Source of the DNA: Parabacteroides sp.
Lineage (GTDB): Bacteria > Bacteroidota > Bacteroidia > Bacteroidales > Tannerellaceae
Assembly (NCBI GenBank): GCA_017481945.1
Contig: JAFUOJ010000018.1
Span: forward strand, 1 to 58,743
Direction of reading: 5' to 3'
Length of the DNA stretch: 58,743 nucleotides
This document shows positions 7,440-54,736 of this stretch, one piece after another. Below the pieces are notes generated by a model that saw only the letters and a program-made list of their open reading frames with translations, had not been told where the DNA came from and made no database searches. Numbering within the stretch: position 1 is the stretch's first letter; each line of letters starts with the position of its first letter. A program made the position numbers and the translations under genes.

Positions 7440-7568
7440 GACATTCCAATGTCTCCTCGATTTACATATAGATGTCACCCCTGACGACATACCGATGTCC
7501 CTGCCGCCGACATACCGATGTCCCCATTGCCGACATACCGATGTCGAGGCGGTCGACATACCGATGTC
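7440..7568. repeat. 23-bp tandem array of six palindromic units (GACAT-ACCG-ATGTC)
   Basis: Six 14-bp units start at 7440, 7463, 7486, 7509, 7532 and 7555, exactly 23 bases apart. The last four are identical, GACATACCGATGTC, a 5-bp dyad around ACCG. The first is GACATTCCAATGTC and the second TACATATAGATGTC. The 9-base spacers differ from one another and are not repeats. The array fills the gap between the M3 peptidase stop and the GH2 gene. A 23-base period cannot keep a reading frame, so it is not coding. Function unknown: it could be a protein-binding array or a series of small RNA hairpins. Confidence 0.9.
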
Positions 7569-7601
7569 GTTTTGAGGGTGATTTCACCTCCTGAAAAGGA
7601 G

Positions 7602-7639
7602 ACAAAGGCGAGACGCTTGAAAGAGGGTCCCGCCTTTGT
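7602..7639. other. Inverted repeat with 9-bp arms upstream of the GH2 gene
   Basis: ACAAAGGCG (7602-7610) and CGCCTTTGT (7631-7639) are perfect inverted arms around a 20-base loop. There is no T-run, so it is not a typical terminator. It lies 80 bases before the GH2 start and could be a leader hairpin or operator. Confidence 0.45.
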
Positions 7640-7720
7640 TCGTATTATGAGGCTTTTACTTGTACATCTCAGGATTTATTGCGAATATTGCGACAAAGAT
7701 TAGTTATAAAAGATGTTATT

Positions 7721-10700
7721 ATGAAAAAGAGGAAGAGTCGATACGGGGTCATGATGGCCCTCTGTCTGCTGGCAGGACAGGTCATGCAGGCACAAGACAA
7801 ACGGGAAGAAAAGGATTTCTACACAGCGATAGCCAGCAACAAGCAGGTAGTTGAGGGAGACCGACCTTTGGAGAAGATCCAAGAGAAGGAGCTGCCTGCC
7901 GACCAACGATTGAACTGGGCAGACTCGAAGAAGTATCGCTTTACACCGATGAAGAAAATCACCTCTAAGCAGGAGATGGAACAGGCGTTGGGCGATTTGA
8001 AACAACAATATGCCCCCTTCTTGCAGGACGTGGCACCGGCCTTTCAGGCGGTACGCCGGACGATTCGCATAGACAGCATGCAGTTCCGCTACGAGACGAA
8101 GGAGGACTGTCAGGACTTCAGCCGTCTCTCCCAAGGCGGTGGCGAGTGGGAGCAGGTGGCCATGCCTTACTATCATGGGCCGCATGGGGTGGCGACAGCC
8201 TGGTATCGGAAGGAGTTTGAACTGCCTGCCGAACTGATGGCGATGCCGGCGGTCATGCTGCATTTCAATGGGTCAGACTACTATACAGACGCCTATATCA
8301 ATGGACATCACGTAGGGTACCACGAAGGGATGTTGGATGAGTTTGAGTTCAACATCAAGAAGTACCTGCGCCCGGGGAAGAACACGCTCTTGGTGAAGGT
8401 GCGTAACGACTATTCCATGTTAGGAGGCGAGGCGACCCCACGCCGTTGGGGGAATAAGTTGGCAGCAAGTAATAGCGCCGGTTGGGACGACCCACATTCC
8501 GGCTGGATTTGCTGTCCGGCAGGCTTCGGAATCTATCAAGACCTCTATATCGAAGGACGCGGTATGCCCTACATCGCGGATATGTTCTGCCGTCCGCTGT
8601 TAGACCAATCGGCTGTAGAGCTGTGGGTCGAAGTCGAGTTGGAGAATGGCGATGACGCAGACCACTTCCAGTTGGAGTACAGCTTGTATGGACAGAACTT
8701 CCGGGCGACAGTCGTGAAGAGTCAGCAGAAGGAGATCCGCGTAGAGGGCGGCCGGGTACTGAATAAGACTGTGGTATCTATCCCGGAAGAACAGCTGAAG
8801 CTCTGGGAACCGAGTGCCCCCTGGCTCTACCAAATGCAAGTACGTCTGTTGGACAAGCAGGGGCAGGCGTTGGACGGACGAAAGCAGCAGTTCGGTATGC
8901 GCCAGTTTACCATCAGTACGACCAGTCTGCCGAAAGGACGCTTCTATCTGAATGGAAAAGAGGTACGGTTGAGAGGGACGAACACGATGGGCTTCTTGCA
9001 GAAAAGTGTGATGGCGCATGATTGGGAACGCTTGACGGACGACCTGCTGTTGGCGAAGCTGACGAATATCAACTTTATCCGCACGACACAACGCATTGTC
9101 CCGAAGGAGGTGTACGAATATGCAGACCGCGTAGGTATGATGATGCAAGCCGACCTACCGCTGTTTGCCTATATCAACCAGAAGCAGTACACCGAGATTC
9201 TGAAGCAGGCAGGAAACATCGAACGAGTGTTGCGCAACCATCCCTCTGTGATCCTGATGAGCTACTTGAATGAGTCGATGGCAGAAAAGCAGGCACATGC
9301 GATTAGCCGATATGCCTACGAGCGGCTGTTCGACGCGCTGGATGTGGTAGTACATAATGAGAATCCGGAGCGGGCAGTGAAGTATGTCGATGGAGACTAT
9401 CAGGCACCGAATAATGGCTATCCGGATAATCATTGCTATAATATATGGTATGATAAGCATGGAATCGGGTTGCCGGAGATGGGCCGGGGAGCCTGGATGA
9501 AGGTAAGTAAAGGCTGGATGTATGGCTGTGGTGAGTTTGGAGCAGAAGGATTGGACTTCCCGGAGCTGATGAAACGGCGTTACCCGGCAGACTGGTTGAA
9601 GAAGGAGGCGGACGGTTCTTGGAATCCGCAATATATGTTTGGTATTTATACCGGAGCACAGACTTGGAAAATGCACTGGAACTGGTTCGAGACACAATAT
9701 ACGATGGAGGACTGGGTACGTGAGAGCCATCAACATCAGGCTTGGGGTATCGGTTTGGTATCGCGTGCATTCAGACGTATGCCGAGGATGAATTCTTTTG
9801 CCATCCATCTCTTTATAGACGCTTGGCCGAACTGTTGGATGAAGGCAATTATGGATTGCGAACGGACTCCGAAGCCGGCTTGGTTTGTCTATCGGGACGC
9901 ACTGACGCCGCTGTCTGTACAGGTGGAGAGTGAACGTACAGCCTTCTTTGGCGGACAGGAGTATCCGGTGAAGGTCTGGGTATGTAACGATACACATGAG
10001 ACACCGGAAGCGGTTCTGAAATATACCTTGGAGCTGAATGGTCGCGTGGTGAATAGCGGTTCAGTACCGGCTGTCGTCCCAACGATTCAGGAGGCGGTCT
10101 CTTTCCAAGGTTATTTGCCGGTAGAGGTACCAACAGTGAAGCAGAAATCAACAATGGTTGTTCGTGTCGGCCTCTTCGACAAAGCGACAGGTAAGGCTAT
10201 CCACGAAGATAAGATGGAGAGCGTAGTTTATCCGACAGAGAAATGCAGCAAACAGCCACGTGTTTATGTCGTAGGAGAGAGCGATGATACGAAAGCGATT
10301 CTTGAACAGTTTGGTTTGACAGAGGTGGTCCGTTCTGGCGAGATCCTGCCGACTGATTTGGTGATCGTGGCAGATAGTATGTTGGAGACAGCTATGCAGA
10401 GTAAGATTGCGACGGCAGTCAAGGCGGGAGCTCGTGCCCTATTGCTGAAAGAGGCGATGAGTAGTAAGTCTTCGTTGTTTGACCTAAATCTATCAGTGGA
10501 TGTTGCGGATAAAGATAGTTGGATTGTCTTCCGTAATGTATCCCATCGTTGGTTAGCCGGGTCGGAGTCAACAGACTTGAAGTATAACTACTCTTCTGCA
10601 TTGCAGGCTCCGGAACGACATTACTACCGTCTGTTTACTGCTCCGGAAATGACACCGGTATTGACGTATAGAGAACAAATGGTAGTCGGAGAGAAGCAGG

Positions 10701-10804
10701 AGGGAAAAGGTAGTTGGGTGATTTGCTCATTAAAGCTGCAGGGCAAGTTGGATACGACACCGACCTTGAGTAGGATGGTACGAAAGATCGTAGAAGGAAA
10801 GTAG
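7721..10804 (+). CDS. Glycoside hydrolase family 2 enzyme, exported
   Basis: This 1027-residue enzyme has the GH2 layout: signal peptide (LLAGQVMQAQ, about 1-25), a jelly-roll sugar-binding domain with VMLHFNGSDYYTDAYINGHHVGYHEG, an immunoglobulin-like domain, a TIM barrel, and an extra C-terminal region of about 300 residues. The likely acid/base is Glu518 in SYLNES and the likely nucleophile Glu605 in GCGEFG. GH2 includes beta-galactosidases, beta-mannosidases and beta-glucuronidases, and I cannot tell which applies. I start at 7721 rather than the in-frame ATG at 7679 because 7721 gives a clean signal peptide. Its base composition is visibly more GC-rich than its neighbours, which produces long antisense open frames and may indicate transfer. 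It is followed by a strong two-way terminator. Confidence 0.88.
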   Translation: MKKRKSRYGVMMALCLLAGQVMQAQDKREEKDFYTAIASNKQVVEGDRPLEKIQEKELPADQRLNWADSKKYRFTPMKKITSKQEMEQALGDLKQQYAPFLQDVAPAFQAVRRTIRIDSMQFRYETKEDCQDFSRLSQGGGEWEQVAMPYYHGPHGVATAWYRKEFELPAELMAMPAVMLHFNGSDYYTDAYINGHHVGYHEGMLDEFEFNIKKYLRPGKNTLLVKVRNDYSMLGGEATPRRWGNKLAASNSAGWDDPHSGWICCPAGFGIYQDLYIEGRGMPYIADMFCRPLLDQSAVELWVEVELENGDDADHFQLEYSLYGQNFRATVVKSQQKEIRVEGGRVLNKTVVSIPEEQLKLWEPSAPWLYQMQVRLLDKQGQALDGRKQQFGMRQFTISTTSLPKGRFYLNGKEVRLRGTNTMGFLQKSVMAHDWERLTDDLLLAKLTNINFIRTTQRIVPKEVYEYADRVGMMMQADLPLFAYINQKQYTEILKQAGNIERVLRNHPSVILMSYLNESMAEKQAHAISRYAYERLFDALDVVVHNENPERAVKYVDGDYQAPNNGYPDNHCYNIWYDKHGIGLPEMGRGAWMKVSKGWMYGCGEFGAEGLDFPELMKRRYPADWLKKEADGSWNPQYMFGIYTGAQTWKMHWNWFETQYTMEDWVRESHQHQAWGIGLVSRAFRRMPRMNSFAIHLFIDAWPNCWMKAIMDCERTPKPAWFVYRDALTPLSVQVESERTAFFGGQEYPVKVWVCNDTHETPEAVLKYTLELNGRVVNSGSVPAVVPTIQEAVSFQGYLPVEVPTVKQKSTMVVRVGLFDKATGKAIHEDKMESVVYPTEKCSKQPRVYVVGESDDTKAILEQFGLTEVVRSGEILPTDLVIVADSMLETAMQSKIATAVKAGARALLLKEAMSSKSSLFDLNLSVDVADKDSWIVFRNVSHRWLAGSESTDLKYNYSSALQAPERHYYRLFTAPEMTPVLTYREQMVVGEKQEGKGSWVICSLKLQGKLDTTPTLSRMVRKIVEGK

Positions 10805-10827
10805 GAGATACTTCACTACAAATGATA

Positions 10828-10868
10828 AAATGGGATATTTCTCAGCCTCGATGAGAAATATCCCATTT
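10828..10868. terminator. Bidirectional terminator, 17-bp perfect stem
   Basis: The arms at 10828-10844 and 10852-10868 are perfectly complementary over 17 bp, with a 7-base loop and A/T-rich ends. It lies between the converging GH2 and DUF5723 genes and can serve both. Confidence 0.88.
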
Positions 10869-10889
10869 CTTTATGCGTAAAGAGAGATT

Positions 10890-12317
10890 TTAAATTTCGT
10901 TACTCTTCTTTTTCCCTAATGGGATGGAAAGTCCGATGTAAGCATTTAAGTTCTTTGTGTTGTTCTTGCCTAAGAACATATAGTCGGTACCAATGAAAAG
11001 AGGACCTAATTTGGCTGCAACACCGAAGCTCTTACCAGCACTTTGTATCACAGAATAACTGATAGCGCAGTTGAAAGCATTAGAAGGACGAACATTGGCA
11101 GAGAATGTCAATTCGTTTAATGTTTTCGGATTGGTAAAACGAGCGGTGTATAAAGCACCTACTACTAACCAATTGTTTAGTAGAGCGTATTCGGCTCCTA
11201 CAACGACAGAAGAGGTAAGTCCTGTGCTTCTGCTCTCTTTGGCTGATTCGTTCACCTCCATCTGTAGCAAGTCATAATTCAAGACCTCTCCGCTGCTTAC
11301 CATATCCACGAATTCATATCTGTCCGATTCGTCTCTTAGGTTATAGTTGTGGTTTGCTTTTGCAGTGGCAATACTTGTATGGCTTTCAGACCACTTGATG
11401 AATCCTAAGTCAAGAACAGAAGCAGAAAGAGTTAAGTTGTTCAGGAGTTTATAGGAAACACCTAAATCGACACCGGCTCCATATCCTGCAAAACCGAAAG
11501 AACCAAAATCAATGTCGTCGATGTAATCATTCTCTTGGGTAAGCTCTAAAAGTTTGGATGAACTTTCAAGAGTCGCGTCCACATTGATATTCGCTTCTCC
11601 GCGAAGATTTTGTAGTTGTTCGTAAGTAGGATTGTTAAAGTCAATGTTTTCATATCCGCTAAGATTACTGCTTACGCTGATGTTGTTGATGTTCATTTTT
11701 AGGTTTCCAACTCCTAATAAAACTTTTACTTTACCACCAACGGTCAAACGATCGTTTATATCTCTGGCATAGCCGACACCCGTTTCGATGTAGGAATTGA
11801 TTTCGAGAGATTGGGCTCCTACTTGTTCATTAATATGAGCTAATCGACTCCAGTCATCGATGTTTAATCCGTCCATGTTACGCATGAATTGAAACATAGA
11901 CTTAGGAATAGAGGCTCCGATATCATTACGTACCCCGATGTTGATAGACCAGAAGTTTTTCCCTTTATACCATCCTGCGGAGATGATGTCTGTGTTTAGG
12001 TTGACATTTAAATTATTGGTTACGTCCAGACGATTAATGAAATCGTTACTCATGAAATAGTTTCCGTCTTCACTATTTTCAATAATGTCCATCACATCTT
12101 GAAAACTTAAAGAGGAAGAATTAACACTGGCATTGAGTGAACCGATAGCCGGTATATTAATATAGCCTCGATCTGGTGTCAATGCCGGATTTAGTTGTTG
12201 ACGGTAATGACTACCTTCCATAAAATAGGAAGTTCTTAAGAATTGTGCATACCCTGGTATGGAAACCAAGAACAATAGTACTAAAGATAGATTTCTTTTA
12301 ATATTAGAAAGTTTCAT
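10890..12317 (-). CDS. DUF5723-family outer-membrane beta-barrel protein
   Basis: This is a 475-residue secreted protein with a signal peptide ending GYAQ, followed by FLRTSYFMEGSHYRQQLNPA. The rest is mainly amphipathic strands (NLNVNLNTDIISAGWYKG, TVGGKVKVLLGVGNLKMNIN) and ends YIGLSIPLGKKKS, as expected for an outer-membrane barrel of the DUF5723 type common in Bacteroidales. The molecular function of this family is not known. It appears to be a single-gene transcript, with its own -7 box 17 bases before the start and the shared terminator after it. Identification rests on the N-terminal pattern and overall barrel character. Confidence 0.75.
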   Translation of the reverse strand: MKLSNIKRNLSLVLLFLVSIPGYAQFLRTSYFMEGSHYRQQLNPALTPDRGYINIPAIGSLNASVNSSSLSFQDVMDIIENSEDGNYFMSNDFINRLDVTNNLNVNLNTDIISAGWYKGKNFWSINIGVRNDIGASIPKSMFQFMRNMDGLNIDDWSRLAHINEQVGAQSLEINSYIETGVGYARDINDRLTVGGKVKVLLGVGNLKMNINNISVSSNLSGYENIDFNNPTYEQLQNLRGEANINVDATLESSSKLLELTQENDYIDDIDFGSFGFAGYGAGVDLGVSYKLLNNLTLSASVLDLGFIKWSESHTSIATAKANHNYNLRDESDRYEFVDMVSSGEVLNYDLLQMEVNESAKESRSTGLTSSVVVGAEYALLNNWLVVGALYTARFTNPKTLNELTFSANVRPSNAFNCAISYSVIQSAGKSFGVAAKLGPLFIGTDYMFLGKNNTKNLNAYIGLSIPLGKKKSNEI

Positions 12318-12333
12318 AATGTAATATTTTTTG

Positions 12334-12341
12334 CAAAAGTA
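12334..12341 (-). promoter_or_regulatory. -7 box (TACTTTTG) for the DUF5723 gene
   Basis: On the minus strand TACTTTTG fits TAnnTTTG, with TTGT 19 bases further upstream as a weak -33 box. It leaves a very short leader before the ATG at 12317. Confidence 0.65.
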
Positions 12342-12383
12342 TGAATATTATACAATTTTGACAATTAATAGAAGGAGAAAAGA

Positions 12384-12421
12384 AAAGGAGGTAATCTCTA
12401 TGCAAAATGATTACCTCCTTT
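12384..12421 (-). terminator. Terminator after the DUF4861 gene, 13-bp stem
   Basis: AAAGGAGGTAATC and GATTACCTCCTTT pair perfectly around a 12-base loop. On the minus strand the stem is followed by a T-rich stretch. It isolates the DUF4861 gene from the DUF5723 gene downstream. Confidence 0.85.
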
Positions 12422-12443
12422 TTCTTTGTTATTTGTCGGATTG

Positions 12444-13652
12444 TTATTGAATCGTGATTTTTAAAGGTTCTTTGAGGTTCTGCGCGAATTGTTGCACGTA
12501 TTTGTACCATTCTTCCGAGTTGGTGAATCCCCATTTACTCCAGCCGGCACCGCTATAATAGGTGTATGTCTTGCCTGGAGCGTAGGTGCTGTAGGCTAAT
12601 ACGTGGCCATTGGCACCTCGTTCAGCTTTTTCTTTGTCGGAGAATCTTACGACTTTAGTTTCATTGGGTTTCTCCGGGAATACAGCGGCAATATAGGTTT
12701 GTCCGTTGTCACCGTCTACAGGGTCTGCGTAAGCGATATAACCTTTATTCGCTTCTGCCTGATAATCTTCGCTTGGCTCGTGTAAGACAATACCTGTTAC
12801 GACCGAAGTAGCCGCAGATAGATTATCGTAAGTAACGGTTATCTTGTTCAATTGTGAACCGGCGTCCAAAGAAATTGTGCGGGTTTCAATCACGTTGTTG
12901 TCTGCGTTTATAGTTAATGGATTGTAGACCAATTTAGCAGTGAAGCGTAATGGACCATTGTCTAAGATCTGATAATCTTTGTAGCAGTATGGATAAACAA
13001 TCGAATCATTTACTAAAAGAGCAGAGGTACCGGCTCCTAATGTTGGACCTACCTTATAATTATCTAATCCGTTGCCATGATCAATGTGGTAAGAGACTGA
13101 ATTGGATAGTTCTTTTGCAGCCTTTGGATCTGTTTTACGCAGTTCTGCAATCTTAGCCTTTGTTTCAGGGTTAAGTTCCGTATTGTAACGGGCTTCGACA
13201 ACAGGTTCGGCTACCCGTTTTACCCAAATATCACAACCGTACGCTTTTTCACCCGTCGCCTGTAAAGCCGGTCCGTAGGTGCGGAAAGCAATACGGTCAT
13301 TTTCCCAGGCGATATCATCTACCCGTTCAGGATAATGTCTTCCGCAAGTGATCGTTTTAAACTCGTTCGGTGTTCCTGCGGCTATTTTGTAGGTATATGT
13401 CTCTCCGGCTTTTATAGAAACAGGAAAAATGATTTTGTTATCGTATGTGATTTGATAAGGAATCTGTGAACCGTTGCTATCTAAAATGACGAAAGAGTTG
13501 CTTTCTAACTTCGTAATGACATCCGAGTTGATTTCTGTAATCTCATTTGTACGATCTGTTGCAGAAGGATTACTGATGGTTATTTCAACTACTTTTTCTT
13601 GGGTACATGCGAATGCACATACGGCAAGTAATGAATAAAATATCTTTCTCAT
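12444..13652 (-). CDS. DUF4861-family lipoprotein
   Basis: This 402-residue protein has a lipoprotein signal peptide with lipobox AFAC (Cys16). The body matches the DUF4861 pattern: ITISNPSATDRTNEI near the start, then ENDRIAFRTYGPALQATG, CDIWVKRV, and DHGNGLDNYKVGPTLGAGTS. DUF4861 proteins are often found in polysaccharide-use loci of Bacteroidetes, where an enzyme role on sugars has been suggested; I do not assign one. It stands alone between its own -7 box and terminator, and no polysaccharide locus is adjacent. Confidence 0.8.
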   Translation of the reverse strand: MRKIFYSLLAVCAFACTQEKVVEITISNPSATDRTNEITEINSDVITKLESNSFVILDSNGSQIPYQITYDNKIIFPVSIKAGETYTYKIAAGTPNEFKTITCGRHYPERVDDIAWENDRIAFRTYGPALQATGEKAYGCDIWVKRVAEPVVEARYNTELNPETKAKIAELRKTDPKAAKELSNSVSYHIDHGNGLDNYKVGPTLGAGTSALLVNDSIVYPYCYKDYQILDNGPLRFTAKLVYNPLTINADNNVIETRTISLDAGSQLNKITVTYDNLSAATSVVTGIVLHEPSEDYQAEANKGYIAYADPVDGDNGQTYIAAVFPEKPNETKVVRFSDKEKAERGANGHVLAYSTYAPGKTYTYYSGAGWSKWGFTNSEEWYKYVQQFAQNLKEPLKITIQ

Positions 13653-13704
13653 AAATTGTTTATGTGTTTGATGTATTAATTACTCTTTAAATTTACTTGA
13701 TTTG

Positions 13705-13712
13705 CAAAAATA
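13705..13712 (-). promoter_or_regulatory. -7 box (TATTTTTG) for the DUF4861 gene
   Basis: TATTTTTG on the minus strand fits TAnnTTTG about 53 bases upstream of the ATG at 13652. The -33 region is not convincing. Confidence 0.55.
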
Positions 13713-13850
13713 CATAATTTATATAAACCTTCGAGGCATTGGTAAAAAAAGTGGGATTATTGGTCTATTTGCACTTTTTCTGTTTAGGAAAGGAATAACT
13801 ATGTCAGAAATATTTCTAACTTTAGAGCACAATCATTAAATCGAAAGATC

Positions 13851-15931: not shown

Positions 15932-15936
15932 AAAGT

Positions 15937-18029: not shown

Positions 18030-18407
18030 TAGCAAGTGGTTAAAAATATCATCCACCGCCTCCGATTCTATTTTCAAGCGCTTAAAAATAGAATCGGAGG
18101 CGGTGGAAAGTACTTTCAAGCACTTAAAAATAGAATCGTAGGGCTCCGAAAGTATTTTCAACCACTTGAAAATAGAATCGTAGGCGGTAGAAGGTATAAA
18201 AAAGTGCTTGATACTAAAATCTACCGCCTCCGATGATATAAAAAAGCACTTGATAGTCCCATCGTAGGCCTACGGAGGTCGGAAATAGTGCTTCGGAATG
18301 GTTCCGTAGGCCTACGGAGATAGGAAATAGCGGTAGAAAGTCATTTCGTAGGGCTACGGAGTGAGAAAATTGTACTTGGAACGGTAGGAAATGTAAAAAA
18401 ACTGTAA
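18030..18407. repeat. 42-bp tandem array, about nine units, with dyads every 21 bp
   Basis: Units begin at 18030 and recur every 42 bases to about 18407, the last one diverged. Each unit carries two dyads about 21 bases apart: one around AAGCGCTT/AAGCACTT, the other around TACCGCCTCCGAT or CGTAGGCCTACGG. In the 18240 unit the dyad centres are at 18247.5 and 18268.5, and the next is at 18289.5. The first units form a perfect 22-bp inverted repeat (18053-18074 with 18085-18106). Because 42 is a multiple of three, frames stay open on both strands and give spurious 14-residue repeat peptides. The array fills the gap between the divergent hydrolase and propeller genes. Function unknown. Confidence 0.88.
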
Positions 18408-18461: not shown

Positions 18462-19604
18462 ATGCGTTGGATTGGTTTTGTCTTTTGTGGATTCCTGTCG
18501 GTCTCTTGTGTGGAGAACTCAGTAGTCAAACAGGAAAAGGAGCTTCGGATTGAAGCAGCTTTGCGAAGTGATAAGCATTTGGAGTTGGGTGATTTGACGG
18601 ACTCTATAGATTGTGTGCTTTTGGAGACGACTGATTCTTCTCTGTTGGCAAACAGATCCTATTTACTTTATGGAGATGAGAAAGATTTGTTTGTGCGTTC
18701 GGGGGATCTGCTTTTCCGTTTCCGGGCGGATGGACGTTTCTTGAATAAGATAGGAGAAGTGGGAAATGGTCCCGGAGAATATGAACTCTTGTATTCCGTA
18801 TCGGTAGACCCGAAGGAGGAACGGTTGGTTTTCTATGTCGGACAAAGGCGGGTACAGTTTTGGAACTATGCGGGACGCTTGGAGAAGGAATTGACGCTGT
18901 CGGGCAAGGGGGAGATAACAAACGTACAGCTTTTGGGGCAGGACAAACTGGTGGCAGAGCAACGCCTCTATTCAGACAAGGGGGTAGAGACAACGATTCA
19001 GCTCTTTGACCTCTCCGGAAAATGCGTGAAAGAGATTCCGATTCATCGGGATGAGGAGTCGGTGAATAGGACGATGATGACAGTCCCCTTGATGTACAGT
19101 CGGGAGGGGAACGTGAAGTATAAAGATATACATGAGAAGTCGCTGTATGCCTTTTCGGGAACTGACGGGGCGGTGGAATGGACCTTCGAGTTGGGAGAAT
19201 ATGCTCCGTCGAGGGAGTTATTGGAAGATGTGAATAAAAAAGAGACGCTGTTGAGGGAGTTTGCACAGCTGGTCGATGTACGGGAGAGTGAGAACTGCTT
19301 CTATCTTTTGATGGTCTATGCCAAAACGTTAAGAGGGATGATTGTGGATAAAAAGACGGGAGCAGTTCTGTTTAGCGAGTCCATCGCAATGCCTCAAAGA
19401 GGGGGTGGCTTGAAAAATAACTTCATACAAAATACGGCTTTCTGGCCTACCTATATTTCGGATCAGAATGTAGCCTATGCGTTGCTGTCAGTTGATAGGT
19501 TAAGCCCTACCGGAAAGGAGGAACTTCGTACTTATTTGTCTCCAAGTAACTTCCCAATCCCTGAGGATTCGAATCCTGTTGTAATTAAAGCCTATGTAAA
19601 GTGA
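18462..19604 (+). CDS. Six-bladed beta-propeller lipoprotein (BF3164/DUF4934-like)
   Basis: This 380-residue protein is probably a surface or periplasmic lipoprotein of the six-bladed propeller group that is abundant in Bacteroidales. The signal peptide has lipobox SVSC. Propeller-like segments include LFRFRADGRFLNKIGEVGNG followed by PGEYELL, VEWTFELGEYAPS, and a C-terminal end with PSNFPIPEDSNPVVIKAYVK. The GNGPGEY pattern is typical of the group. I start at the ATG at 18462; a GTG six bases upstream is also possible. Two decayed or shortened relatives lie at 15375 and 30857. Function in this group is not established. It is followed by a short stem that also ends tspO. Confidence 0.75.
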   Translation: MRWIGFVFCGFLSVSCVENSVVKQEKELRIEAALRSDKHLELGDLTDSIDCVLLETTDSSLLANRSYLLYGDEKDLFVRSGDLLFRFRADGRFLNKIGEVGNGPGEYELLYSVSVDPKEERLVFYVGQRRVQFWNYAGRLEKELTLSGKGEITNVQLLGQDKLVAEQRLYSDKGVETTIQLFDLSGKCVKEIPIHRDEESVNRTMMTVPLMYSREGNVKYKDIHEKSLYAFSGTDGAVEWTFELGEYAPSRELLEDVNKKETLLREFAQLVDVRESENCFYLLMVYAKTLRGMIVDKKTGAVLFSESIAMPQRGGGLKNNFIQNTAFWPTYISDQNVAYALLSVDRLSPTGKEELRTYLSPSNFPIPEDSNPVVIKAYVK

Positions 19605-30440: not shown

Positions 30441-30660
30441 TTCCAGCCTCTGGAAAACTTGGAGAGAATAGGAAAAGCCAATTCCAGCTGCTGGAATTGG
30501 CTTTTCTGTATTCAAAAATGATTTCCAGCTCCTGGAAATCATTTTTTTGTTTTCAAAAGTCTTTTCCAGCAGCTGGAAAACATTTTTGAATTGTGAAAAA
30601 GAAATTCCAGGAGCTGGAAAAGACTTTTGAATCGTTGAAAACCTTTTCAGGATGGCTGAA
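30441..30660. repeat. 41-bp tandem array of six palindromic cores (TTCCAG-N3-CTGGAA)
   Basis: Cores start at 30441, 30482, 30523, 30564, 30605 and 30646, exactly 41 bases apart. Five read TTCCAG-N3-CTGGAA with centres CCT, CTG, CTC, CAG and GAG; the sixth is a diverged TTCAGGATGGCTGAA. Flanks extend some dyads: the second has perfect 17-bp arms (30472-30488 with 30490-30506). The fourth unit's left flank instead pairs with the fifth unit's right flank over 19 bp. Weaker T4/A4 dyads lie about midway between cores. The array occupies half of the 443-base gap between the DPP gene and the small lipoprotein gene. The rest of the gap (30661-30856) is AT-rich with no recognised feature. Confidence 0.9.
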
Positions 30661-46294: not shown

Positions 46295-46312
46295 TGTAGT
46301 ATGTAATTTCTA

Positions 46313-46460: not shown

Positions 46461-46503
46461 TCGAAAATATTTGGTTTTTTGTTCTGAATTTGGGATTTAA
46501 GAG

Positions 46504-47014
46504 ATGAAGAAAAGTAATAGATGTAGACCGGTTTTAATCAGAAGTCTACTGATCGGTATGTCCATTTTTGTCCTTTCTGTAACGGGTTTTGCGCAGAAAA
46601 GAGCAGGAGGAAAAACGGTAGTTACCGTAAATACGGAGATGGTTACCAACATGGAGTATGAGACGTTCCTTCAAGATCAATTGGTCGAAAATGGAAGTAT
46701 TCAGAATGTAAGTAAAACTAATCTTCAATTATCAAGCCCCGTATTTTCCAACAATCATTTAAGATGTTCTCTTGGAGGATAAACCAAATAATACCTCTTT
46801 ACCTGAAACTTGTTTGTATAGTAGGAGTCTAATGCGTCCGGAATTGAAGTATGAAACCAGTTTAAGTAAAGAACTAAAGCTCTGCTTTCGGCACGGAGGT
46901 TATCATGTTATTAATAGTAAATTGTATAGAAAGAATAGTCATTCGGAATTAATAGATATGGATACTTCGACAGGAGCTTATTGGACTGTTCAATTAGTGG
47001 CTAATATATTCTAA
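46504..47014 (+). pseudogene. Broken gene for a small secreted protein of unknown family
   Basis: The first frame (46504-46782) encodes a signal peptide (RSLLIGMSIFVLSVTGFAQ) and a mature part reaching SSPVFSNNHL, then stops. A second frame runs from about 46763 to 47014 and ends ELIDMDTSTGAYWTVQLVAN. Removing one A from the TTTAAG at about 46759-46764 would join them into one protein of about 170 residues (HLDVLLEDKPNN at the join). This suggests a one-base insertion in what was a single gene. I do not recognise the family. A 22-bp repeat array begins three bases after the second stop. Confidence 0.5.
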
Positions 47015-47016
47015 AA

Positions 47017-47098
47017 GTTTCACCGGATGAAACTCAAAGTTTCTTACCATGAAACTCGGAGTTTCTTATGTGAAACTTTTAGTTTCATGGTAAGAAAC
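47017..47098. repeat. 22-bp tandem array of four dyads (GTTTC-N-GAAAC)
   Basis: Dyads GTTTC..GAAAC start at 47017, 47039, 47061 and 47082, 22, 22 and 21 bases apart. The inner sequences are ACCGGAT, TTACCAT, TTATGT and ATGGTAA. The fourth unit is the exact reverse complement of the second, and together they form a 19-bp inverted repeat. The array starts three bases after the broken gene and ends 33 bases before the M28 peptidase -7 box. Confidence 0.85.
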
Positions 47099-47131
47099 TA
47101 AAAATATACGTTCGGAGTGAATAGAAATCTT

Positions 47132-47139
47132 TAACTTTG
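47132..47139 (+). promoter_or_regulatory. -7 box (TAACTTTG) for the M28 peptidase gene
   Basis: TAACTTTG fits TAnnTTTG 41 bases before the ATG at 47181. TTCG about 17 bases upstream is a poor -33 box. The repeat array lies immediately upstream. Confidence 0.65.
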
Positions 47140-47180
47140 TGCTTCAATAATAGTAACGACAAATAATTCGATAGAGTATT

Positions 47181-48782: not shown

Positions 48783-48804
48783 TTGATTTACACAGAAAAA
48801 AGTG

Positions 48805-48812
48805 TAACTTTG
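48805..48812 (+). promoter_or_regulatory. -7 box (TAACTTTG) for the glycosyltransferase gene
   Basis: TAACTTTG is a perfect -7 match 66 bases before the ATG at 48878, with TTGA 18 bases upstream as a partial -33 box. Confidence 0.65.
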
Positions 48813-48877
48813 AGCAGTAGTTTTAGAGATAAGCTAAATAGCAACATAAAAGAGATAAAGAATTAATTGATTAGGAT

Positions 48878-49630: not shown

Positions 49631-49649
49631 GATTCTAAGGAAACAAAAT

Positions 49650-49700
49650 AAAAATCCTCCTAAATTCAACTCTATAAAGAATGAATTTAGGAGGATTTTT
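49650..49700. terminator. Bidirectional terminator, perfect 19-bp stem
   Basis: The arms 49650-49668 and 49682-49700 are perfectly complementary over 19 bp, with AAAAA/TTTTT at the outer ends. It separates the converging glycosyltransferase and rpiB genes. Confidence 0.92.
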
Positions 49701-49710
49701 AGTTGTTTTA

Positions 49711-50142
49711 TTATAAAGGTATTTTCTCGATCCTACGTTGATGGCGACCACCTTCAAAAGGAGTTGTAAAGAAAGCATTTACAACACGAGTTGCTTCTTC
49801 TTGACTAATACATCTACCTGGCATGACAAGTATATTGGCATTGTTGTGAGCACGTGCCAAACGTGCCAACTCTTCTTGCCAACATAATGCAGCACGTATT
49901 CCTTGATGTTTATTAAGAGTCATTGCAATACCATTACCAGTACCGCAAATTGCAATACCCGGATAGACATCTCCTGCTTCTATAGCTTTCGCAAGCGGAT
50001 GTGCATAATCTGAATAATCACAACTGTCTGTTGAATAAGTTCCAAAATCTTTGTAAGCAATTCCTTTGGAGTCAAGTAACTGTTTTATGAATTCTTTCAA
50101 TTCAAATCCAGCATGGTCACTACATAAACCGATTGTTTCCAT
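49711..50142 (-). CDS. rpiB: Ribose-5-phosphate isomerase B
   Basis: This 143-residue enzyme interconverts ribulose-5-phosphate and ribose-5-phosphate. It has the RpiB residues in CSDHAGFELK (Asp9, His10), the catalytic ICGTGNGIAM (Cys66, Thr68), and NNANILVMPGR. The length is normal. It lies 48 bases downstream of transketolase and in the same direction, so both non-oxidative pentose-phosphate enzymes probably share a transcript, with a hairpin between them. Confidence 0.94.
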   Translation of the reverse strand: METIGLCSDHAGFELKEFIKQLLDSKGIAYKDFGTYSTDSCDYSDYAHPLAKAIEAGDVYPGIAICGTGNGIAMTLNKHQGIRAALCWQEELARLARAHNNANILVMPGRCISQEEATRVVNAFFTTPFEGGRHQRRIEKIPL

Positions 50143-50156
50143 ATATATTCATTAAA

Positions 50157-50185
50157 AAATGGGACACGAGAACCGTGCCCCATTT
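50157..50185 (-). terminator. Hairpin between transketolase and rpiB
   Basis: AAATGGG pairs with CCCATTT, with an inner CACG/CGTG stem. It lies between the transketolase stop and the rpiB start on the minus strand. It has no strong T-run and may only partly stop transcription or stabilise the upstream message. Confidence 0.5.
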
Positions 50186-50190
50186 ATATT

Positions 50191-52218
50191 TTATGCTAAT
50201 AATTCTTTTACTTGCTTATAAACATTCTTACCTGTGAAACCTAATTTCTCATCTAATACCTTGTAAGGAGCAGAGAAACCGAAAGATTCAAGTCCCCAAA
50301 CTTTACCATTTGCACCGACTAAACCTTCCAAATTGACAGGTAATCCGGCGGTAAGTCCAAATACTTTACTTCCTGTAGGTATAACAGATTCTTGATATTC
50401 TTTACTTTGGCTACGGAACAAACCTTCAGAAGGAACAGATACAATACGTACTTTTATTCCGTCAGCACGAAGTAATGCAGCACCTTCAACCAAAGTTGAT
50501 ACTTCAGAACCGGAAGCAACCATGATTACATCTGGATTTTCATCTCCTTCAACAATGTAAGCTCCTTTGTTCGCTTGCAAAGCTTCTTCATAACGACTTT
50601 CTTTAGCTGGAAGGTCAGTTATGTTTTGACGAGAAAGAATTAAAGCAGTTGGTGTTGTCGTATTTTCCATTGCCATCTTCCAAGCAACAGTTGTTTCAAC
50701 AACATCTGCAGGACGAAGAACTAACATTGAGTTATGTCCTTTGTGATTCTTTAATTTTTCCATCAAACGAATTTGTGCCTCTTGTTCTACAGGTTCATGA
50801 GTTGGACCGTCTTCACCTACTCGGAATGCGTCGTGTGTCCAAATGAATTTAACCGGTTGTTCCATTAAGGCAGCCATACGAACCGCTGGTTTCATATAAT
50901 CAGAAAAAACAAAGAACGTTCCACAAGCTGCAATTACACCGCCATGTAATGACATACCAATACAAATACACGCCATTGTTAATTCAGCTACACCTGCCTG
51001 GAAAAATGCACCTGAGAAATCTCCTTTAATGAATGCATGAGTTTTCTTTAAGAAACCATCTGTCTTATCAGAATTAGAAAGGTCTGCTGAAGCCACAATC
51101 ATATTTTCTACTTGAGTAGCTAAAGCTCCTAATACAGTTGCAGAAGCTGCACGAGTCGCTTGATTTGGCTTTTGTTCAATTGCTTTCCAATCAATAACTG
51201 GGGCTTTTCCTGAGAACCAGTTTTGCATTTTAGCTGCTAATTCAGGATTTGCCTTTGCCCATTCTTCTTTTGCTTGGTATCGTTCTGCTACAATTGCCTC
51301 TAACTCTTTAGCACGCTTTGCATATAGTTCTGCGACTTCTGGGAATATTTGGAAAGGATCTTCTGGATTTCCTCCTAAATTCTTAATAGTTTCAGCGAAA
51401 GAAGCACCCGCAGCTGAAATCGGTTGTCCGTGTGTCGATACTTTGTCTTCATAACTGCTGTTATCTGATCCAACAGCTCCTTTGCCCATAATAGTGCGAC
51501 CGATGATTAATGTCGGACGGGAAGTCTCTGCTTTTGCTTCTGTTAGTGCTTGACGAATTTCTGTAACATCATTTCCATTGATTGAAATTACTTTCCAACC
51601 CCAAGCTTCATATTTCATAGCAACATTTTCGATTGTCACTTCTTCTACTTTGGTGGAAAGTTGAATGTTATTAGAATCATAGAACATAATCAAGTTGTCC
51701 AAACCTAATGTTCCCGCAATACGTCCAGCTCCTTGAGAAATCTCTTCTTGAATACCTCCATCTGAAATATAAGCATAGATGGTTTGATTCATAAGATCTC
51801 CTAATCGTGCTTTAAGAAATTTTGCAGCAATGGCAGCACCTACTGCAAATGTATGACCTTGACCTAATGGTCCGGATGTATTTTCTATTCCTCGCATCAC
51901 ATCAATTTCAGGATGTCCTGGCGTAACGCTTCCCCACTGACGGAACTCTTTCAGTTCGTCCATAGTGTATTTACCTGTAAGCGCAAGTATAGAGTAAAGC
52001 ATTGGAGACATATGTCCCGGATCTTGGAAATAACGGTCTCTACCTTCCCATGTAGGATTTTTAGGGTCATACACAAGAAACTCTGAAAACAGTACATTGA
52101 TAAAATCTGCTCCACCCATAGCACCTCCCGGGTGACCTGATTTTGCTTTTTCGACCATAGATGCAGACAGAATACGGATGTTGTCTGCTGCTTTGTTCAT
52201 TAATTTAATATCGTTCAT
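50191..52218 (-). CDS. tkt: Transketolase
   Basis: This 675-residue thiamine-diphosphate enzyme moves two-carbon units between sugar phosphates. It has the N-terminal active-site KSGHPGGAMGGADF, the PLGQGHTFAVGAAIAAKFL stretch, the cofactor-binding segment from YISDGGIQEE to YDSNNIQLS, and the DAFRVGEDGPTHEPVEQ signature of the pyrimidine domain. The length is normal. ATG 52218 fits the -7 box 27 bases upstream. It is first in a two-gene unit with rpiB. Confidence 0.97.
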   Translation of the reverse strand: MNDIKLMNKAADNIRILSASMVEKAKSGHPGGAMGGADFINVLFSEFLVYDPKNPTWEGRDRYFQDPGHMSPMLYSILALTGKYTMDELKEFRQWGSVTPGHPEIDVMRGIENTSGPLGQGHTFAVGAAIAAKFLKARLGDLMNQTIYAYISDGGIQEEISQGAGRIAGTLGLDNLIMFYDSNNIQLSTKVEEVTIENVAMKYEAWGWKVISINGNDVTEIRQALTEAKAETSRPTLIIGRTIMGKGAVGSDNSSYEDKVSTHGQPISAAGASFAETIKNLGGNPEDPFQIFPEVAELYAKRAKELEAIVAERYQAKEEWAKANPELAAKMQNWFSGKAPVIDWKAIEQKPNQATRAASATVLGALATQVENMIVASADLSNSDKTDGFLKKTHAFIKGDFSGAFFQAGVAELTMACICIGMSLHGGVIAACGTFFVFSDYMKPAVRMAALMEQPVKFIWTHDAFRVGEDGPTHEPVEQEAQIRLMEKLKNHKGHNSMLVLRPADVVETTVAWKMAMENTTTPTALILSRQNITDLPAKESRYEEALQANKGAYIVEGDENPDVIMVASGSEVSTLVEGAALLRADGIKVRIVSVPSEGLFRSQSKEYQESVIPTGSKVFGLTAGLPVNLEGLVGANGKVWGLESFGFSAPYKVLDEKLGFTGKNVYKQVKELLA

Positions 52219-52244
52219 TGTGTGATGGATTTTTAATATTTTTG

Positions 52245-52252
52245 CAAATATA
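52245..52252 (-). promoter_or_regulatory. -7 box (TATATTTG) for tkt-rpiB
   Basis: TATATTTG on the minus strand fits TAnnTTTG, with TTTA 18 bases upstream as a near -33 box. It overlaps the gap just after the SDR stop. Confidence 0.7.
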
Positions 52253-52257
52253 CAATT

Positions 52258-53097
52258 TTATTCTTCCCAATAAATCATTTTCTTAGTCATTCCCCCATCA
52301 ATCGTAATATTTTCTCCGTTGATAAAATCATTTTCTTCTTGACAAAGGAATAAACACATACGGGCTATATCTTCCGGTTTCCCAACTCGGCCGGATGGAT
52401 GTTGGGCATGATCTTCCGGTCGGAGGGATTCATAATCGTGTGTTTGTATCCAACCGGGAGAGATTGAATTCACTGTGATGTGCCATTGAGCGAGTGATAA
52501 GGATAGGGCATGCGTCAGAGAATAGATACCTCCTTTGGAAGCCGCGTACCCCTCGCTTCCCGGTTCACTCATCAGATACCGAGTCGAACAAATATTGATA
52601 ATTCTTCCGAAAACATTTGGCGTCTCTTTCGTTTGGAGGCGATGAAGAGCAAGTTGTCGGGAAGTAATGAAAACAGGACGCAAATTAACAGATAGAACAT
52701 GATCAAAATCCTCAACTTCCGTCTCCGTAATAGGAGCAAATTGACCGATACCCGCATTGTTGATTAGAATATCAATGTCACCCCACTCATTAAACAACTG
52801 CTGCATACAATTTTCTAAAGCGACTTTATCACTAACGTCTACCGGATAAAAGGTCGTACCCGTCTTTAAAGCCGTATCTTTTCCTGCCACTTCGTCTTGG
52901 TCACAAAACGCTACACGATGTCCTGCAGAACGAAAGAGTTTGACAATCGCTTTCCCGATTCCCTTGGCTCCACCGGTGATAAATACGCGTCTGGTCTTGT
53001 GAATAACCCCAGCCTTTTTCCCGGATCCGTTTTTGGCTTTTGATATTTTGTGAGCCTGATACTCCTCGTATTTCCTTTCCAAATAGTTGTCTGCCAT
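52258..53097 (-). CDS. Short-chain dehydrogenase/reductase (SDR)
   Basis: This 279-residue NAD(P)-dependent SDR has the cofactor motif TGGAKGIG (residues 41-48), LINNAGIG, a serine in NICSTRY and the catalytic GYAASKG (Tyr-x-x-x-Lys). It ends with the usual GENITIDGGMTKK. An unusual 36-residue lysine-rich N-terminal extension precedes the fold. I start at 53097 and not at the in-frame ATG at 53124, because the -7 box at 53122-53129 covers that ATG and a transcript could not include it. Substrate unknown. It has its own promoter on the minus strand. Confidence 0.88.
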   Translation of the reverse strand: MADNYLERKYEEYQAHKISKAKNGSGKKAGVIHKTRRVFITGGAKGIGKAIVKLFRSAGHRVAFCDQDEVAGKDTALKTGTTFYPVDVSDKVALENCMQQLFNEWGDIDILINNAGIGQFAPITETEVEDFDHVLSVNLRPVFITSRQLALHRLQTKETPNVFGRIINICSTRYLMSEPGSEGYAASKGGIYSLTHALSLSLAQWHITVNSISPGWIQTHDYESLRPEDHAQHPSGRVGKPEDIARMCLFLCQEENDFINGENITIDGGMTKKMIYWEE

Positions 53098-53121
53098 AAT
53101 GATTCTAACTTTTGATGTTGG

Positions 53122-53129
53122 CAAAGATA
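53122..53129 (-). promoter_or_regulatory. -7 box (TATCTTTG) for the SDR gene
   Basis: TATCTTTG on the minus strand is a perfect -7 match and overlaps the upstream ATG at 53124, so it decides the true start at 53097. Confidence 0.68.
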
Positions 53130-53192
53130 CATAATATTGAAGTAAGGAATAAATCTTTTCACCTTACCTCATAAAACAAAATACACCTTTGT

Positions 53193-53789
53193 CTATTTCA
53201 AATTTGATAACTTATTAGCCCATTCTTCAGTCAGTTTATAACGTTGCAAATCGTTTTGAAGACGAGTACGTTCACGATGATCTGTCGGTGTATAATTCCG
53301 TTCACGTTGATAACAGATGTACAAGTTGGTACGGCTTCCAATGCCTGATAAACGGGCAATCTGCGTAGTCGTAAGATTCGTATAACGCAACAACAGGTCA
53401 GCCGTCCGCATCATCCAGTCAGTACGGAACTGCAATCCTTCTACTCCGGTCAACAGAAAAGTCATTACGTTCAAATCACTAATACGAATCCCATGCCGTT
53501 TACAAAAAGCCTCTTGGCTCGTCTTTCCCAACCAAAGCCATTGTAGATACTCGTCAAAAATATGAATACCGGTAGGAGTGAGGTTGGGCTTTATATCTAC
53601 ATAACCCGTAAATCCCCGTTCATCAGTCACCTGCTCCTTGCCGAAAGGCGAAATGTAGAGGCTGTCCAATGAAAATTGTGGCTCGCTAAGTAAAGGCGCC
53701 CTCTTTGTTTTAGGAGCATTGCTTCTCCATTCCTTTCGCCATGACGACCGAGCCATCACCTTAGCCCTGTTCCCATCTTTGTAGTGCAT
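53193..53789 (-). CDS. AraC-like helix-turn-helix protein of unknown role
   Basis: This 198-residue protein has a C-terminal half (about 90-180) resembling the paired AraC-type HTH: a first helix-turn-helix around KTSQEAFCKRHGIRISDLN, and a second with NLTTTQIARLSGIGSRTNLY followed by NYTPTDHRER, close to the AraC ending. The N-terminal 90 residues are charged and not recognised. I start at ATG 53789, because the in-frame start at 53885 lies upstream of a -7 box at 53820-53827. A 42-bp palindrome array lies directly upstream and could be an operator for this gene. It marks the left edge of an accessory-looking region. Confidence 0.6.
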   Translation of the reverse strand: MHYKDGNRAKVMARSSWRKEWRSNAPKTKRAPLLSEPQFSLDSLYISPFGKEQVTDERGFTGYVDIKPNLTPTGIHIFDEYLQWLWLGKTSQEAFCKRHGIRISDLNVMTFLLTGVEGLQFRTDWMMRTADLLLRYTNLTTTQIARLSGIGSRTNLYICYQRERNYTPTDHRERTRLQNDLQRYKLTEEWANKLSNLK

Positions 53790-53819
53790 AGTTTCTATTA
53801 TTAACCATTTAAAACTCTT

Positions 53820-53827
53820 CAAATATA
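53820..53827 (-). promoter_or_regulatory. -7 box (TATATTTG) for the AraC-like gene
   Basis: TATATTTG on the minus strand fits TAnnTTTG 31 bases before the chosen start. The repeat array begins 23 bases upstream of it, so its first unit covers the -33 region. Confidence 0.6.
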
Positions 53828-53849
53828 AGAAATATATTATCATTAAAAC

Positions 53850-54002
53850 TTTAGAGTAAACATTATTTTTGTAATTTATTATCACTAAATTTTTAGAGAT
53901 AATAAATTCATTAGATTTTATTTACTTTAAATATTTAGCGATAACAAAATACATCAATTGTGTAAACTCTAAATTTTTAGAGTTTACACAATTGATGTAT
54001 TT
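53850..54002. repeat. 42-bp tandem array with CTAAA/TTTAG dyads and a 27-bp perfect palindrome
   Basis: TTTAGAG or TTTAGCG occurs at 53850, 53892, 53934 and 53976, exactly 42 bases apart. Three copies are centred on a dyad of the form CTAAA-TT-TTTAG. The last forms a perfect inverted repeat of 27-bp arms (53947-53973 with 53976-54002) with a 2-base loop; the second has an 11-bp stem with one mismatch. The array covers the region just upstream of the AraC-like gene's -7 box. Confidence 0.85.
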
Positions 54003-54108
54003 ATAAATTGAAGATTTTGTTGAAGTTGATGTTTGGAGAGGTTATTTGCCGATGCAGCATATTATGCTAATTGACTATCAATATTTTATGGCTTAAAAGA
54101 TAGAAGGC

Positions 54109-54426
54109 TCAAAAATTTACTTGTTTTTTCGCCGAAAATCGAAGATTTAACGATTTTAACCTTAGTTTGTCTTCAAACGAAGGGAAAAAGAGGAAAATGG
54201 CTCTCTTTTGTTCCGAAACCTCCGGTTCGCAAAGATAAGGCATATCGGTGATTATTTCGCCGATTGTGGCTGTAAAATCAGAGATGGATTCACAGATTTT
54301 CTGGTTGTCTTTTGTAGCTTGACAAGGGCTCGAATCATATCTGTTTTGTGAGCAGGATTTCTGTGTATTTTGCAACCAAAAGAGAAAGTCGGCAGATATG
54401 GTTCGGTTCGGCTTTAGCGAAGTCAT
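54109..54426 (-). CDS. Possible small protein, unrecognised
   Basis: This open frame of 105 codons starts with ATG preceded by GGGAGA at a good ribosome-binding distance, and encodes a basic, cysteine-containing peptide with stretches such as ADFLFWLQNTQKSCSQNRYD. There is no signal peptide or domain I recognise. It lies in a 1062-base gap (53790-54851) otherwise filled with repeats and hairpins and has no clear promoter, so it could equally be a chance frame or a remnant. Confidence 0.3.
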   Translation of the reverse strand: MTSLKPNRTISADFLFWLQNTQKSCSQNRYDSSPCQATKDNQKICESISDFTATIGEIITDMPYLCEPEVSEQKRAIFLFFPSFEDKLRLKSLNLRFSAKKQVNF

Positions 54427-54446
54427 CTCTTTTCTCCCTTTGTTAG

Positions 54447-54491
54447 CTTTACTTTAATGCACGTATACATGAATACGAGGATAAAGTAAAG
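54447..54491. other. Inverted repeat, 10-bp arms with inner CGTAT/ATACG
   Basis: CTTTACTTTA (54447-54456) and TAAAGTAAAG (54482-54491) are perfect inverted arms, with a second small stem CGTAT/ATACG inside. It lies just upstream of the possible small minus-strand gene. No T-run. Confidence 0.5.
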
Positions 54492-54551
54492 TTAGTTTTC
54501 ATTTTGAATAGCCAATCTAATCTTGAGATTTGTGTTTATGTAACGAATAAT

Positions 54552-54594
54552 ATATTGTTTGTTATATGGGTGTATTGGCACTTACAAACAATAT
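54552..54594. other. Inverted repeat, 11-bp arms
   Basis: ATATTGTTTGT (54552-54562) and ACAAACAATAT (54584-54594) are perfect inverted arms around a 21-base loop, immediately left of the 33-bp array. It could be an operator or an end of a decayed element. Confidence 0.5.
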
Positions 54595-54608
54595 GATAAC
54601 ATTTACAT

Positions 54609-54736
54609 TTTTCCAAAGCAAAATCACCTTGTCTTTCGCACTTTTCCAAAAATGCTTCTCGGAATCTGCTGCAAAGACATTGGATTCGCTTGGAAAAGTG
54701 TTGTATAATGGTTGTGATTCGTTTGAAAAAGTGTAG
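54609..54736. repeat. Four-unit mirrored array, 33-bp spacing within each pair
   Basis: Related units built on GATTCG-(C/T)TTGGAAAAGTG occur twice on the minus strand (cores at about 54611 and 54644) and twice on the plus strand (54690 and 54723). Spacing is 33, 46 and 33 bases, so the block is symmetric about 54670. The two plus units (54683 and 54716) are closest to each other. It lies about 85 bases before the XRE-gene -7 box. Confidence 0.65.

Follow-up and report, generated by a model that had tools for sequence, protein, structure and literature searches.

Dispersed families of palindromic tandem arrays with recurring spacings in intergenic DNA of Parabacteroides

Dyad arrays in five gaps of the window

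Positions 1 to 58,743 of contig JAFUOJ010000018.1 of a Parabacteroides genome (assembly GCA_017481945.1, here G000; other G numbers denote comparison genomes) were analyzed and are referred to below as the window. Among named organisms, Parabacteroides supplies the nearest relatives of the V-ATPase A-subunit gene of this genome. Short tandem arrays of palindromes (dyads) are present in five of its intergenic gaps, and the array cores that were followed into other gaps and species belong to dispersed repeat families which keep a palindromic core together with a fixed step from core to core. Tandem repeats, called with Tandem Repeats Finder (TRF), had periods of 23 (and 46) bp at 7464-7568, 42 (and 84) bp within 18040-18361, 41 bp at 30482-30587, 22 bp at 47027-47068 and 42 bp at 53875-53982. 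A dyad-array detector was run in two versions, the looser of which tolerates 1 bp per step. It found six arrays of three to five dyads each in these five gaps, two of them at 18.0-18.4 kb, with steps of 23, 42, 42, 41, 22/21 and 42 bp in order of position, and the stricter version recovered four of the six. When the same 319 kb of G000 was dinucleotide-shuffled three times, neither version reported an array. Folding of the arrays in the same order was stronger than that of shuffled sequence, with z-scores of -6.3, -11.6 and -5.5 (the two arrays at 18 kb), -10.3, -9.5 and -10.7. No Rfam match reached the gathering score within the window.

A sequence-only reading had placed arrays in six gaps. 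The sixth site, near 54609 (54590-54760), is a weak nested inverted repeat instead of a tandem dyad array, with neither a TRF row nor a detector match and a fold z-score of -2.4, which resembles the non-array gaps of G000 (median -2.9).

None of the arrays is assigned to a strand. Array 1 (family F1, 7440-7568) consists of units at 7440, 7463, 7486, 7509, 7532 and 7555 with an exact 23-bp period and 9-bp spacers; its core GACATACCGATGTC is intact in the last four units and degenerate in the first two. Array 2a (18040-18233) repeats the dyad TTCAAGCGCTTAAA every 42 bp, its first unit being a long near-perfect inverted repeat, and is followed by array 2b (family F2b, 18262-18361), found by both TRF and the detector, with the same period and the core CGTAGGCCTACG. 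Array 3 (family F3, 30441-30660) contains five cores TTCCAGnnnCTGGAA spaced exactly 41 bp apart, a degenerate sixth core at 30646, a perfect inverted repeat with 17-bp arms (30472-30506), and runs of A and of T where the stems of its units begin. Array 4 (family F4, 47014-47101) opens with the half-core AAAGTTTC, carries GAAACn5GTTTC cores at 47029, 47051 and 47072 and closes with the half-core GAAAC; the second spacer is the exact reverse complement of the last, which lets most of the array fold into a single rod. No terminator-like site was detected in array 4, the array scanned for such sites. Array 5 (53875-54002) has a 42-bp period with the dyad around CTAAATTTTTAG and terminates in a perfect palindrome with 27-bp arms (53947-54002).

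Core families and their steps across species

Recurrence outside the window was tested for the cores of arrays 1, 2b, 3 and 4, as distinct from 2a and 5. Pairs of cores were sought with a free gap of 0-30 bp, which sets step ceilings of 44 bp for F1, 45 for F4, 44 for a further family, F5, and 42 for F2b, the F2b search thus being blind to longer steps. F3 was sought across genomes only as 41-bp pairs and in G000 by its core alone. The genus searches for F3 and F4 pair patterns covered 38 Parabacteroides genomes. Patterns read backwards served as controls and gave no matches in the core-pair searches except for F1 in G007.

The F1 core GACATn4ATGTC was found in three species (G000, G002 and G007) with a step of 23 bp in all 14 pairs; in G000 it occupies three gaps, where the steps are always exactly 23 bp and the 9-bp spacers differ. 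The F4 core GAAACn5GTTTC recurs at 21-23 bp in six species, with 16 close pairs in G000, 13 in G023, 12 in G005, two each in G030 and G002 and one in G015. The steps of these 46 pairs, counted by hand from the pair listing, were 21 (19 pairs), 22 (24 pairs), 23, 44 and 45 bp (one pair each). Four pairs of the F5 core AAAGTCnnGACTTT, three in G000 and one in G022, were all spaced by 22 bp or its double. The F2b core CGTAGGnCTACG was observed in four species (G000, G027, G009 and G025) exclusively at 41-42 bp, 42 bp being the longest step visible, and its G000 pairs lie at two loci, the second at C22:27774.

The F3 core TTCCAGn3CTGGAA was present at 40-42 bp in three species, with one pair in a fourth. 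In G000 it was read in eight gaps, namely that of array 3 and seven others, and 32 successive distances between cores comprise 30 of 41 bp, one of 40 and one of 82 bp. The steps were 41 bp (12) and 20 bp (one) in G010, and 40 bp (four), 41 bp (seven) and 42 bp (four) in G020, the loci of both genomes having been chosen for containing 41-bp pairs; array densities in these two genomes are biased for this reason. The 41-bp pair pattern was found in four of the 38 genus genomes (G000, G010, G020 and G015) and, among 158 genomes spanning the order, in G000 only; the F4 pair pattern was likewise confined to G000 among 60 genomes spanning the phylum. The F3 arrays of G010 in L061, L062 and L065 lie at or near contig ends; short-read assemblies may thus break at such arrays, and draft genomes may contain more of them than are counted. 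The comparison of array 4 with a plasmid collection and of array 3 with a phage collection by blastn, one array per collection, yielded no match, and a plasmid or phage origin was rejected on this basis.

The spacers do not follow the cores. Identities between species, computed on representative spacers, were 0.40 for F2b, 0.37 for F3 and 0.50 for F1 against shuffled values of 0.34, 0.29 and 0.44, compared to 0.67, 0.75 and 0.55 within species. Spacers of one family are nearly unrelated between species. The same was apparent at one orthologous gap of G000 and G023, where the F4 cores are kept and the spacers differ. Spacers and neighbouring genes are not conserved, so whatever maintains the arrays, be it selection or copying, must act jointly on core and spacing. 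The arrays of the window are indeed unrelated to each other, as the sequence-only reading had stated, but they are not without relatives: four of the cores (arrays 1, 2b, 3 and 4) are also present in other gaps and species, as dispersed families of fixed period.

De novo detection elsewhere in Parabacteroides and the Tannerellaceae yielded many further cores, among them ACCCATATATGGGT at 24 bp, CTCGACGCCGTCGAG at 41, AAAAAGATCTTTTT at 42, CAGTCGCTCGGCTG at 22 and GGAACAGGCTGTTCC at 23 bp. Apart from two 14-bp arrays, the de novo dyad arrays have periods of 21-24 or 40-42 bp; none of 25-39 bp was detected in the Tannerellaceae sample, and one array from another family had a period of 33 bp. Of 48 detected arrays, 39 lie outside called reading frames and the remaining nine inside frames of 81-127 amino acids that were taken as spurious. 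An additional dyad halfway through the 41-42-bp units was weakly indicated (two of 17 spacers at p<0.05, Fisher p=0.027) and was not adopted.

Counts that take no account of dyads gave a similar picture. The recurrence of exact 8-mers in gaps was highest at 21-23 bp, and counts at 20-24 bp exceeded those of shuffles about 15-fold in G000, 16-fold in G013 and 37-fold in the Tannerellaceae panel; the factor was about 14, with smaller counts (25.0 vs 1.8 per distance), in other Bacteroidales families. Counts at 40-43 bp were raised in G000 (11.2 vs 1.0), the panel (66.2 vs 2.8) and the outgroups (5.8 vs 1.1), with a peak around 42 bp in G000 and the panel, and not raised in G013 (1.8 vs 1.4). The 10-19 bp band was raised as well, peaking at 14 bp in G013 and the panel. 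An AT-rich repeat of 14-bp period, TTAATTGTCAATTGT, is common to two Tannerellaceae genomes (L052:6700-6741 and L123:13281-13322).

Gaps of at least 150 bp, delimited by a simple longest-open-reading-frame rule, were also scored by whether at least four 7-mers were repeated at a distance of 20-24 or 40-43 bp, with an equal number of control distances for comparison. In the sampled Tannerellaceae DNA, 71 of 370 gaps qualified at array distances and 16 at control distances. By set, the numbers were 12 vs 2 of 50 in G000, 13 vs 1 of 99 in G013 and 46 vs 13 of 221 in the Tannerellaceae panel, which represents one region in 80 related genomes, so that its gaps are not independent. Other Bacteroidales families (16 vs 12 of 171) showed a weaker signal than the Tannerellaceae, and other orders gave 4 vs 4 of 72. 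Array gaps were somewhat commoner among convergent (15/50) than among tandem (35/195) or divergent gaps (21/122). Repeats at 21-23 and 41-42 bp were also seen in other Bacteroidales families at L172:3483-3794, L271:7157-7721 (G062), L167:9601-9842 (G051) and L176:4085-4572 (G109); the geometry may thus extend past the Tannerellaceae. A geometry shared across unrelated units, as proposed from the sequence, is therefore real in the genus and the family and exceeds both shuffled and control-distance expectation; the scan against shuffles had been named beforehand as a possible refutation, and the arrays outnumber the shuffles.

Folding, turnover and surroundings of the arrays

Among 23 F4 copies read by hand, 21 start with AAAGTTTC and 19 finish with GAAACTTT. 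Seven copies, picked largely for matching outer spacers, folded with z-scores of -4.0 to -11.3. In the 15 copies with spacer lengths 7-6-7 the outer spacers covary, with a score of 0.371 against 0.156 in shuffles (reached in 0/500) that also exceeds slid versions. A permutation test on 21 of the copies gave p=0.0006 by one spacer alignment and 0/5000 by the other. The number of spacer pairs changed on both sides was not unusual (5 vs a shuffled mean of 4.2, 186/500). Per-unit covariation in the F3 flanks was not significant and pairing of the F3 centres is not kept (13/32, null 16.6), so that the families differ in this respect.

Several observations concern change in units and arrays. Spacers are inverted in some units (G000 C22:35762, window 30564 and L068), and two F3 arrays of G000, in C16 and C4, are 83% alike across 206 bp, one being a block copy of the other. 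Species differ in whether a given gap holds an array and in how long that array is. The gap upstream of an ATP-binding cassette (ABC) transporter gene was represented by 30 loci, of which 29 include the upstream DNA (L243 stops short of the gene start), and arrays were read in eight of the 29, mostly by eye. They comprise F4 in G000 and G023, a GAACGATCGTTC family in G031, G014 and G002, a AAGATATATCTT type in G015 and two other types in G007 and G025, and single-hairpin remnants were seen by eye in G013 and G030. By program, the detector flags G015 only, the F4 pattern G000 and G023, and the 7-mer rule is passed by G000, G023, G031, G014 and G007. The base rate of 71/370 predicts about six array gaps, so that the eight arrays read are no evidence for a privileged site, and a hot spot was rejected. 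Several F4 copies of G023 (L202, L207, L212, L213 and L079) adjoin a common GATGCCT(GTCGG) stretch, and the element may be longer there.

A 21-bp dyad array, TTAGTTnnnnAACTAA, is conserved in eight Tannerellaceae loci (L086 at about 18865-18938, L083, L085, L087, L092, L104, L105 and L110) directly upstream of a repressor-like gene that belongs to PF03965 (Penicillinase_R, BlaI type) in the two loci tested, L086 and L087. In four of the eight loci the gene before the gap ends like the gene before window array 3. This array is likely the operator of the adjoining repressor-like gene, which suggests that arrays with a 21-bp step that are read by a protein exist in the Tannerellaceae. It resembles the families described here in its 21-bp dyads, kept cores and free spacers, and differs from them as a single locus beside its presumed regulator, whereas the families are dispersed beside unrelated genes. 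An F1 array at L020:5740-5960 lies just upstream of a small frame (MAISYKLVQKG...) which we take to resemble a Bacteroidetes HU-like protein.

Among previously described repeats, repetitive extragenic palindromic (REP) sequences and bacterial interspersed mosaic elements (BIMEs) are dispersed intergenic palindromes linked to REP-associated tyrosine transposases (RAYTs). They are similar to the present arrays in being dispersed and intergenic, but the arrays are phased at fixed steps of 21-24 or 40-42 bp. Of ten genomes searched, only G021 had matches to the Y1 transposase family (Y1_Tnp), and the array-rich G000, G010 and G020 were among the nine without; a RAYT/REP origin was rejected on these grounds. 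Clustered regularly interspaced short palindromic repeats (CRISPR) measure about 23-47 bp and are separated by unique spacers. CRISPR was rejected as well, given cores of 12-15 bp and spacers that are alike within species (0.67 in F2b and 0.75 in F3); this comparison concerns the repeats, cas genes not having been searched.

The closest known elements are the 22-, 23- and 41-nt repeats of Porphyromonas gingivalis and the neisserial dRS3 arrays. According to the available part of one report (PMC4596501), P. gingivalis carries BrickBuilt elements of 23-nt and MITE464/PgRS elements of 41-nt tandem repeats, MITE standing for miniature inverted-repeat transposable element, in addition to 22-nt direct repeats. 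They are described there as having 1 to 22.8 units, predicted stem-loops, a 23-nt unit that is less conserved in one part, flanking segments bearing IS5-like ends, and about 10-20 copies of each MITE type; BrickBuilt is strictly intergenic, and default BLAST of the units matched P. gingivalis only, with homologues in P. gulae (PMC4596501). The present arrays share with BrickBuilt and PgRS the order Bacteroidales, the intergenic position, the imperfect tandem repetition and the periods of 23 bp (F1) and 41 bp (F3). They differ, as judged from the published description, in having two to nine units in the arrays read, apparently mostly without leader or tail, many unrelated cores per genome, and a core and period kept across species. 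Inspection of flanks by eye revealed matching short ends in F4, with some common flanks in G023, and a common tail in several F3 copies of G010.

Neisserial intergenic mosaic elements (NIMEs) likewise combine kept dyad arms and a free centre, the dRS3 unit being ATTCCC(N8)GGGAAT, in intergenic arrays together with variable repeats; in contrast, the consulted part of that source describes RS repeats of 30-160 bp between dRS3 copies, a single dyad family targeted by a phage integrase, and no fixed short period (PMC3898611). The array cores differ by eye from the dRS3 sequence, and an identity with it was rejected. A MITE review names BrickBuilt and, in the part available, no related arrays (PMC10969869), and the main text of a 2025 REP survey contains neither Parabacteroides nor Porphyromonas (PMC12306157); the sources also included part of a P. 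gingivalis resequencing study (PMC5771137). Such arrays were not found described for any organism other than P. gingivalis in a search that left subscription papers mostly outside. We assign the arrays to the intergenic palindromic-repeat kind and to no named family, although the initial statement that no named family fits was too strong, because P. gingivalis has named elements of 23- and 41-nt tandem repeats (PMC4596501).

Possible readers and origins of the arrays

We tentatively favour, at somewhat less than even confidence, a reading in which the arrays are dispersed families of intergenic repeats under constraint in core as well as in spacing, the probable cause being that each family is read by its own DNA-binding protein; we infer this protein, and none was found. 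Each family would combine a palindromic core of about 12-15 bp with a constant distance between core centres of about two (21-24 bp) or four (40-42 bp) helical turns, the DNA helix having 10.5 bp per turn. The core would be a double-stranded recognition site for a dimeric protein that needs adjacent sites at fixed spacing, for example a nucleoid- or repressor-like filament or a protein that copies arrays. Units may be gained and lost through exchange between cores, a palindromic core could let the copying strand switch template and so generate flipped spacers and long inverted repeats, and whole-array transposition is a plausible means of dispersal. The simplest reader is a sequence-specific protein that recognises dyads two or four turns apart.

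A number of results weigh against this reading. Steps of 23-24 bp are no whole number of turns, and the earlier proposal that all dyads face the same side of the helix applies roughly to 21, 22, 41 and 42 bp only, each step of 23-24 bp adding 0.2-0.3 turn. The two nearest frames of at least 100 amino acids beside nine further F1 and F3 arrays share no regulator or transposase by Pfam at E<=1e-5 (two of the 18 frames lack a Pfam family) and no common function, unlike the operator array of one regulator. The 23 F4 gaps, with seven divergent, six convergent and ten tandem, are unlike a regulon, and covariation between the first and last F4 spacers is unneeded for independent protein sites. With a 14-bp repeat class present, the two spacings are not the only ones; E. 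coli gaps also exceeded their control distances (4/56 vs 0), and the backwards F1 pattern gave two matches on each strand in G007.

The covariation of outer spacers in the 15 F4 copies, together with the strong folding of the window arrays and the folded F4 copies, would be expected if the arrays acted as RNA, as rows of hairpins or a long rod in untranslated regions that set the end, stability or protein binding of an mRNA. In three species, a long rod at the same orthologous gap scored far above slid versions, but no better than letter shuffles (111/500). The F4 orientations given above do not tie the family to gene ends, at one gap G023 (with F4) and G000 (without) each have their own separate terminator-like hairpin by eye, the F3 flanks and centres show no kept pairing, and hairpins do not require a linker of fixed length. 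The G-T vs A-C mismatches inside arrays were 16:12 in all orientations and 9:5 in tandem gaps, compared to the RNA-type bias of non-array gaps (38:17 tandem, 17:5 convergent), with 19:10, 9:9 and 8:6 for array gaps as a whole and 12:6 for the three-species rod; inside arrays this wobble test is underpowered and gives no decision on RNA. Overall, we consider a role as RNA unlikely. Spacer inversion, long palindromes with unique flanks, the apparent single-hairpin remnant in G030 where G023 carries F4 (by eye) and the freedom of long genes from arrays are consistent with neutral mutation, in which a chance palindrome seeds template switching and slippage, and arrays are built and homogenised in tolerant gaps. 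Such a process leaves unexplained why readable cores keep one period each across species with diverged spacers and why dyad arrays of 25-39 bp were not detected in the Tannerellaceae sample, and it appears improbable as the full account. Mobile MITE-like elements whose ends are used by a transposase, the mechanism proposed for BrickBuilt, would account for the matching starts and ends of F4, the common tail of several G010 F3 copies and block copying. By eye, however, no target-site duplication was recognised at the F4 ends and the three F1 and eight F3 arrays of G000 have no long common leader or tail; the Y1 (REP-type) transposase is absent from array-rich genomes, in a comparison that did not extend to a genome-wide search for other transposases. 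We regard this origin as very unlikely.

A broader version of the protein-reading hypothesis, which we put forward as doubtful, holds that the arrays form an unnamed Tannerellaceae class of phased palindrome arrays with many cores, read by related DNA-binding proteins that would each fix their own core and their own two- or four-turn spacing, and that this class marks about one fifth of long gaps as part of a nucleoid-organising or copying system.

Descriptions of intergenic repeats usually take them family by family, while here many unrelated families within one bacterial family share two fixed spacings, which places the long-known 22-, 23- and 41-nt repeats of P. gingivalis in a wider setting. 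The families that were followed keep their spacing across species while the intervening DNA is replaced, so that the recognised part can be separated from the free part, and this separation makes a search for the reading protein practical. The joint conservation of core and step across species suggests a cellular reader of both.

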